DNA from: Dermatophagoides farinae
Taxonomy: Eukaryota; Arthropoda; Arachnida; Sarcoptiformes; Pyroglyphidae
DNA: 64,000 bases
Reading direction: 5' to 3'
Assembly: GCF_024713945.1 (NCBI RefSeq)
Contig: NC_134679.1
Location: 5,027,001 to 5,091,000, forward strand
Numbering within the stretch: the stretch's first letter is position 1; each line of letters opens with the position of its first letter. A program made the translations under genes and the position numbers. Below the pieces are notes generated by a model that was not told where the DNA came from, did no database searches, and saw nothing but the letters and a program-made list of their open reading frames with translations. This document shows, one piece after another, positions 46,957-48,922 of this stretch.

Positions 46957-47150
46957 TGTACACTACTAAATCGTAGTGGAGTGGCGAAACTACCAAATCA
47001 GCTAGTACACTACCAAAATCGATAGTACACTACCAAATCAGCTAGTACACTACCAAAATCGATAGTACACTACCAAAATAGTGCACACTACCAAATCGAA
47101 TAGTACACTACCAAAATAGTGCACACTACCAAATCGAATAGTACACTACT
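46957..47150 (+). repeat. Left GTACACTACC array
   Basis: Ten or so copies of an about 20-bp unit (for example GTACACTACCAAAATCGATA, alternating with a CAGCTA-ending form, then with GTGCACACTACC forms), all in the same direction. Confidence 0.9.
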
Positions 47151-47279
47151 TTGATTTTTGACCTCTCCCCCTTTTTAACCCTTTCGACCTCCTTTTCATT
47201 ATTTGTATTGAATTTAAATTTTATTGTAAAATTAAATGAATATAAATAAATTATAAATTATTTTTAAAAACAAAATATC

Positions 47280-47498
47280 ATGATAATGCACAAATTGTAT
47301 TATGCTGATCCAAAATCCAACATTTTATGGTATGAATTTTTGTTGTCCAATAGAAAAGATATATTGTTCCGTTCTCCAAGTTCTAAATGTTTTCAACACA
47401 ATGTCCGAGTTTACAAATCCCAAAAATATGTTAATATTGCAATTCGAATCATATCAGCGGCATTGAGAGATTTGACTACATGGCATTATACTAAATAA
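47280..47498 (+). CDS. 72-residue ORF inside the repeat-bounded element
   Basis: ATG at 47280 to TAA at 47496-47498. The peptide is mixed in composition and not a repeat translation, for example YADPKSNILWYEFLLSNRKD early and IRIISAALRDLTTWHYTK at the end. An AATAAA follows 62 bp after the stop (47561-47566). I recognise no domain. It could be a small element-encoded protein, a last exon, or chance; the absence of simple repeats and the polyadenylation signal favour a real transcript. Confidence 0.4.
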   Translation: MIMHKLYYADPKSNILWYEFLLSNRKDILFRSPSSKCFQHNVRVYKSQKYVNIAIRIISAALRDLTTWHYTK

Positions 47499-47560
47499 TT
47501 GAAAAGGATTAGTTGTAACCGTGGATTTTCAATTCAATTACATACCTGTTTGTTTTTTTA

Positions 47561-47573
47561 AATAAACTTTATT
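47561..47573. terminator. Two-sided polyadenylation signal
   Basis: AATAAA at 47561-47566 on the plus strand is followed one base later by TTTATT at 47568-47573, which is AATAAA on the minus strand. This would serve convergent transcripts from the plus-strand ORF at 47280 and minus-strand exons around 47710-47811. Confidence 0.5.
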
Positions 47574-47709
47574 TACCCCTATATCTTAACAAAAAAAGGG
47601 GAAAAAACATGTAAATATTACAAAAAAAAGAGAAAGAAAAAGAAAAAAAATAAACAACAACAAATTACAATAAGTTAAAAATATTAGAAAAAAATATAAA
47701 TAAAAATAC

Positions 47710-47811
47710 CTGTGTTTGTATCGATGATTCAAACGTGATTTGATTTCCGTGGTCATTGATAAATTGAAATTGGTTGAGATTCAATGCATCAACATCGACG
47801 GAAATCTGAAT
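47710..47811 (-). CDS. Candidate minus-strand exon inside the element
   Basis: Thirty-four codons in phase 0 lie between an AATCAG acceptor (47813-47812) and a CAG|GTATTT donor (47709). The peptide begins IQISVDVDALNLNQFQF and ends SSIQTQ. Another exon-like piece, around RIQYRLDFNQREPDK, lies at 47989-48034, but its phase does not join this one directly. No family is recognised and the gene model is incomplete. Confidence 0.3.
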
Positions 47812-48662
47812 CTGATTATGACTTGAAAATAGGAAGAATTTTTAATAGTAAAATAAAAATAGTTATATTATACTTAACACGTTCGTATTGAAATACACAA
47901 AACAAACAGTTCAAATAATTATTGAACAATCAATCTACAACACATAGTAAAGAAAAAATCAGTTGTTAGCATGATTTAAAAACATAACTTATCTGGTTCT
48001 CTTTGATTGAAATCTAGCCGATATTGAATTCGATCTAAGACTCAAATACTAAACGAAAAGACATTTGTCGTTATCATTAATCAATTCAGATACATACCAT
48101 TATTCATACTCTTGGATTTAATGGGAAAAAAGTCACGTCTTTAATTTCAACATATATGAAATCAAAAACGATAAAATATTCATTTCGTTTTTAGGAAACC
48201 AGAACTTGTTCAAATATTTTATCTTTTTCCAAAAAACAATATTAATCTACGTATATTAGAGATATTTGTAAAAATATTAATTAATTGATTTTTTATAAAA
48301 AAATGATGCAATAGTGCATGACACTTCGCATCTTATTATTTTAATAAATAAATGAATAAATGCCCCAATATTTTACAATATGTTTAATAACAACAAAACA
48401 TTGTTACATATTTGCTCCAAAAATCAATCAGCTACTTACTATTTACCATGGCAAAAAAATAGAAAAAATATCAAAGTTAAACATTTCGAACATGAAAAAA
48501 TTCAATGTTGAAATTTTTTGAAACAGAGAATGATGATTGGGCATTTTTATAGTTGTTGCAATTATAAGTCAATACATGTATGAAATATATTTAATGCCGT
48601 TCATAGACAATGTTATAATGTTGTAATTTTTTAAATTGTTGTAAACTACTTTCAAAAATGAT

Positions 48663-48922
48663 AGTGTACACTACCTAGTTGAGGTCGTGTACACTACCTA
48701 GCTGAGGTCGTGTACACTACCTAGTTGTTAAGTACTTATTCATTTGGTAGTGTGCACTACCATTTGCACACTACCTAGTTGTTAAGTACTTATTCATTTG
48801 GTAGTGTGCACTACCATTTGCACACTACCAACTAGTAATGTACACTACCTAATTGTTAAGTACTTATACATTTGGTAGTGTGCACTACCATTTGTACACT
48901 ACCAAATCGAATAGTACACTAC
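48663..48922. repeat. Right array with palindromic GTGCACTACC units
   Basis: It opens with three copies of GTGTACACTACCTAG at 22-23-bp spacing. Three longer units follow, starting at about 48721, 48775 and 48849, each carrying GTTAAGTACTTAT and the imperfect palindrome GGTAGTGTGCACTACC. It closes with the unit shared with the left array. Confidence 0.9.

Follow-up and report, generated by a model that had tools for sequence, protein, structure and literature searches.

In maize, the TnpA protein of En/Spm binds to subterminal repeats of the element, and transposons of the Tc1/mariner group target TA only. Subterminal direct and inverted repeats are described for CACTA elements (PMC8978399), whose plant members are reported with CACTA/TAGTG termini (PMC4158355) and a target-site duplication (TSD) of 3 bp (PMC4158355, PMC8978399). 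For animal CACTA-related elements 2-bp TSDs are described, together with termini that begin with CCC in the TRC group, an account based on three species, and the first conserved motif of Transposase_21 is given there as D-G-x3-F/Y ... W-P (PMC1636069). Among mites, the scabies mite genome paper mentions EnSpm fragments (PMC4641413); a whole-word search of a literature library found no paper that combines CACTA with Dermatophagoides. Here we describe a two-kilobase unit of Dermatophagoides farinae, studied on a window of 64 kb, the whole stretch of DNA analysed (contig C3:5027001-5091000; coordinates are positions in this window), and by searches in the whole genome of 62,435,336 bp on 22 contigs. 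The unit is probably a recently active non-autonomous CACTA/EnSpm-like cut-and-paste transposon, with subterminal arrays that would bind a transposase supplied in trans.

The unit is a real mobile DNA element, with the dispersed copies, fixed ends and constant TSD of a cut-and-paste transposon. A DNA search with the unit returned 65 matching pieces and, from these, 12 full-length copies on six contigs (four on C2, two each on C3, C4 and C7, one each on C8 and C10). The full copies had a length of 2,007-2,371 bp and were 90.1-99.9 % identical over aligned columns. All 12 were flanked by an exact 2-bp TSD: CA, TG, TG, TC, CA, GA, TG, AA, TA, TA, TA and CA. Among 729 scored combinations of boundary shift and duplication length, the chosen one gave a TSD at 12 of 12 copies and the next best at 5 of 12, while left and right dinucleotides taken from different copies agreed in 18 of 132 pairings. 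The TSDs thus establish mobility, and they support the reading as a novel or diverged DNA transposon that the initial annotation had proposed for 46957..48922. Its unit is real, but has its true ends at 46933 and 48939, 24 bp to the left and 17 bp to the right of the stated limits. Movement was recent, since a core of 1,490 bp was 100 % identical between the window copy and a copy on C4.

Two copies with an identical core are also what a segmental duplication of a host locus could leave behind. However, a comparison of the 24 flanks of 1 kb between copies gave no match at E 1e-5 (low-complexity filter on), and each copy has its own TSD. On contig C8 (3561000-3566000) a truncated copy, L021, is located between two 98 %-identical host copies of 289 bp; the second of these carries no element, and its match ends no more than 2 bp from the left end of the element. 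This partial pre-insertion sequence speaks for the left boundary, although it cannot reveal the duplication. The unrelated flanks rule out a segmental duplication, which is left with a negligible probability.

The termini were CACAC or CACAG at the left and CTGTG at the right in all full copies. Left ends read CACAGAG in the sister copies L019 and L020 and CACACAA in the other ten; a diverged copy on C5, described below, has CATAGAG, with the third base changed. The terminal inverted repeat CACAGAGAAAAAA, a feature of cut-and-paste DNA transposons, is perfect over 13 bp in L019 and L020 and imperfect in the other ten full copies, including that of the window. A pattern of the right-end 17 bases with up to one mismatch occurred 13 times in 62.4 Mb, 12 times in this family, and the reversed control 0 times. 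The occurrences were 11 full copies, the C5 copy and one place on C1; the full copy L011 was missed because its end carries an extra CT. The corresponding left-end pattern was too loose, with 213 matches versus 88 for its control.

Two arrays, reported by the initial annotation at about 46957-47149 and 48664-48922, were present at these places. Within the element, the motif CACTACC/GGTAGTG was counted 20 times (17 forward, 3 reverse), always in one of the two ends. In 1,000 first-order Markov simulations it appeared 0.1 times on average and 2 times at most, and the remainder of the window, 61,993 bp, contains it twice. A block described as 20 bp long and common to both arrays exists, but has an actual length of 27 bp and is in direct orientation (47085-47111 and 48896-48922). 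Also the palindromes of both motif orientations in the right array were recovered, as three copies of GGTAGTGTGCACTACC (see the table). The window copy has the subterminal direct and inverted repeats of CACTA/EnSpm elements. In 11 of the 12 full copies the arrays are confined to the two ends, with direct units at both ends and inverted units only at the right. The exception is L013, in which a longer right array exceeds the limit of 450 bp used and puts one inverted unit beyond it.

The genome searches with the arrays scored best candidates only, hence the locus counts are lower bounds. Left arrays were present at at least 14 loci and right arrays at at least 13, and among these candidates no array lay outside units of this family. 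Thirteen of the 14 left arrays found had a right array in the same unit of 2.0-2.8 kb, which bears out the co-occurrence at a fixed spacing that had been named as a sign of mobility; among the at least 13 right-array loci found, none was without a left partner. The thirteenth paired locus is the C5 copy L022, a diverged relative of 2,815 bp, and the only unpaired left array is that of the truncated L021. The initial annotation had also considered a host locus controlled by a motif-binding factor, or an ordinary satellite with independently scattered arrays. Tandem arrays with a unit number that varies between copies, as observed, would suit immobile DNA bound by a host factor. Neither version fits the paired arrays and their restriction to the family units, nor the TSDs at 12 of 12 dispersed copies in unrelated flanks; the host-gene or satellite reading is ruled out and deserves practically no credence. 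The palindrome-rich right end and the non-coding interior recall instead a Helitron-like element or another one inserting without a TSD. Such an element is ruled out by exact 2-bp TSDs of varied sequence, with the inverted termini as a further argument, and has to be seen as very improbable.

Five insertion sites (L009-L012 and L015) were directly at TG/CA runs, as judged by eye. The dinucleotides TG, GT, CA and AC made up 0.50 of the 40-bp target sites versus 0.25 in the window, which alone provided the background; 0 of 20,000 resamples reached 0.50. On C10, about 11.6-11.9 kb from the start of the contig, a telomere-like run of (CCTAA)n comes to within some 40 bp of the left end of L013; in the 1,501 bp that precede this copy, 46 CCTAA were counted.

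In the interior, the searches made revealed no exons or domains of known kind. The small open reading frame (ORF) of the initial annotation is real (47268-47498), while the exon-like pieces were not supported by these searches. The frame of 76 amino acids (aa) is open in all 12 full copies, with 73 aa in L018, which has gaps there. In the genome it matched only its 12 copies and two fragments, and Pfam and NCBIfam each yielded a single match at chance level (E 0.092 and 0.14). When five copies were compared with that of the window in a sliding manner, some other interior stretches proved about equally conserved, thus selection on the frame cannot be deduced from its conservation. A selected small protein was rejected in view of this equal conservation, the gaps in L018 and the lack of a real domain match. 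What mainly sets L019 and L020 apart from the window copy is a stretch of some 300 bp with unrelated sequence. Pieces of the interior match C4, C7, C3 and C2, two of them no more than a few kilobases away from other transposase-like places, in inconsistent orientation. The translated search suggested earlier for a transposase inside this copy found none: tblastn with nine ORFs from transposase-bearing loci detected in the window copy only the shared end segment, and elsewhere in the window one chance-level match (E 0.91). As no transposase was found inside, the window copy was probably moved in trans.

The diverged C5 copy is a coding relative. Common to it and the window copy are the left array, which has diverged, 128 bp at and beside the inner end of this array (95 %) and the last 104 bp (85 %); between the two interiors there was no match at all. 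Homology with the coding relative is limited to the ends. Since the ends, terminal repeat and arrays, are the parts alike in coding and non-coding copies, the simplest reading of the arrays is that of putative protein-binding sites. The C5 copy carries an ORF of 217 aa with, by eye, an FDDF motif and PPDLFH near its end. Relatives of this ORF are present on C9, C7 (two loci) and C3 (two loci) with 43-69 % identity in aligned pieces, and four weaker ones have 31-32 %. Motifs of the ORF family, DDF, NLP, a KPFV-E block, CDNLAQ and CxxC, appeared by eye colinear and CACTA-like. The C5 ORF has a 56 % match to C7:2797883, a locus with internal stops, and a frame at this locus matched Pfam Transposase_21 (PF02992) with E 2.4e-4 and 20.8 bits, the next family having 0.12. 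In whole-genome searches the Transposase_21 model matched in 0 of 14 control genomes and scored above the cut-off at three further places in the mite genome. A profile comparison with one over-threshold Transposase_21 protein of the genome presented, by eye, colinear motifs (D, LP-x-x-R, KP-V-E, second D, CxxC). The comparison to a second transposase-like family, on C2/C4, reached a probability of 90 %, which gives the ORF family a kinship and not a name, because the second family also has no Pfam transposase match. The C5 ORF had 0 matches in the PDB at E <=1, and no relatives were found in viral contigs.

The three over-threshold places have uninterrupted frames of 926, 926 and 700 aa, at C1:3953091, C5:1079329 and C9:417437, and make up another CACTA family, which may be active. 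Several transposase-like places are clustered on C9 at about 407-428 kb, a possible transposon-rich island.

CACTA-like appears as the most likely class of the element, though not as a proven one. Strict CACTA membership is not claimed, because the termini are CACAGAG/CACACAA and neither CACTA nor CCC in any of the 12 full copies. Further observations weigh in the same direction. The C5 copy, the one coding copy, shows no TSD, with TT at its left and AA at its right, and the stop of its frame near PPDLFH makes the ORF look truncated. Of the six ORF-family members scanned, one matched Transposase_21, below the curated Pfam cut-off (20.8 versus 28.6 bits), and the other five (C5, C9, two on C3, one on C7) did not; the best Pfam match of the C9 member was an unrelated family (E 0.01). 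The first Transposase_21 motif is partly matched, with D-D-x-x-F present and W-P absent by eye, and the profile comparison with the over-threshold protein was weak (probability 6 %, E 0.0058). Although the copies are young, searches of this assembly yielded no intact driver. A non-autonomous transposon from another, perhaps undescribed superfamily with a 2-bp TSD, in which the C5 ORF would be a passenger or belong to a non-CACTA lineage, would account for the termini, for the sub-threshold Transposase_21 link and for the failure of the genome searches to find an intact coding partner. However, the C5 copy shares both ends and the arrays with the window element, and the colinear motifs of its ORF family are CACTA-like. 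The TSDs, of which 3 of 12 are TA, exclude strict TA insertion and thus the target choice of Tc1/mariner elements. Another superfamily is unlikely on balance, without being negligible.

For a CACTA-like transposon, the cis signals would be the short terminal inverted repeats (CACAGAG plus an A-run; CACACAA at most left ends) and the (G)TACACTACC arrays. A transposase, an accessory DNA-binding protein or both would come in trans from a related coding element and attach to the array units. The bound protein would bring the ends together, the element would be excised, and reinsertion with a 2-bp staggered cut would create the 2-bp duplication. We infer that the enzyme was of the CACTA type and that the driver acted in trans. 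Coding and non-coding copies have little in common beyond the arrays and the termini, which makes the idea of the arrays as handles directly testable. D. farinae is a common allergenic mite (PMC11074847), reported to be without a piRNA (PIWI-interacting RNA) pathway and probably controlling its transposons by small interfering RNAs (siRNAs) (PMC5805368). A young family with two core-identical copies at unrelated loci offers a traceable element for asking how effective siRNA control is, and its insertions could be used to mark strains.

Table. Features of the transposon copy in the D. farinae window
Feature	Position	Strand	Remarks
Whole element, 2,007 bp	46933..48939	+	ends set by 12 full copies, exact 2-bp TSDs in 12/12
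Left 2-bp TSD (CA)	46931..46932		
Right 2-bp TSD (CA)	48940..48941		
Left terminus CACACAAAAAAAAATAGCC	46933..46951	+	
Left terminus in other copies			CACAGAGAAAAAAATAGCC in sister copies L019/L020; CATAGAGAAAAAAATAGCC in C5 copy
Left subterminal array	46957..47149	+	period ~20 bp, motif (G)TACACTACCAAAT; CACTACC 7 forward/0 reverse
End segment common to coding C5 copy	47123..47250	+	95 % over 128 bp
Interior without recognisable transposase	47150..48639		C4 copy 100 % identical
76-aa open frame	47268..47498	+	stop to stop; ATG at 47280
~300 bp replaced by unrelated sequence in L019 and L020	within 47733..48050		approximate limits
Right subterminal array	48664..48922	+	CACTACC 10 forward/3 reverse
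Palindromes GGTAGTGTGCACTACC	48746..48761, 48800..48815, 48874..48889		exact
Right end common to coding C5 copy	48836..48939	+	85 % over 104 bp
Right terminus TTTTTTCTCTGTG	48927..48939	-	CACAGAGAAAAAA read inward

In the neighbourhood, about 1.6 kb from the element, two trypsin-like serine protease frames are located at 50579-51582 on the minus strand, with RIIGG and GDSGGP recognised by eye. Three G+C-rich tandem units of 84 bp at 2563-2809 stand out from the A+T-rich mite DNA.

A bolder proposal, which we regard as tentative and rather doubtful as a whole, is a distinct CACTA-related lineage with CACAG ends and direct-orientation arrays that is still moving in a piRNA-less animal, prefers TG/CA-rich sites and has a driver absent from the reference, which either segregates in populations or is a distant relative that works across families. 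The Transposase_21 family of the same genome (C1:3953091, C5:1079329, C9:417437) has the over-threshold CACTA domain and motifs colinear with those of the ORF family; it differs by a far diverged sequence and by 0 CACTACC in 3,201 bp of the C1 copy. With the animal TRC elements, SmTRC1 of Schistosoma mansoni and its relatives in Tribolium and Aedes, the mite element has in common the 2-bp TSD, the terminal inverted repeats and a Transposase_21-like lineage, as far as these are described there, the last being weak in the ORF relatives of the mite element; the described CCC ends of TRC differ from CACAGAG/CACACAA (PMC1636069). The TRC paper never uses the word 'subterminal', and the mite window element is without a findable transposase. 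The termini of plant CACTA elements (En/Spm) begin with CAC and end with GTG, as do those of the mite element. CACTA/TAGTG ends and a 3-bp TSD, as reported for the plant elements (PMC4158355), contrast with CACA and 2 bp in the mite, where CACTA...TAGTG was seen in 0 of the 12 full copies. A further contrast to plant CACTA is the layout of the array, with direct units at both ends of the mite element and inverted units only at the right.
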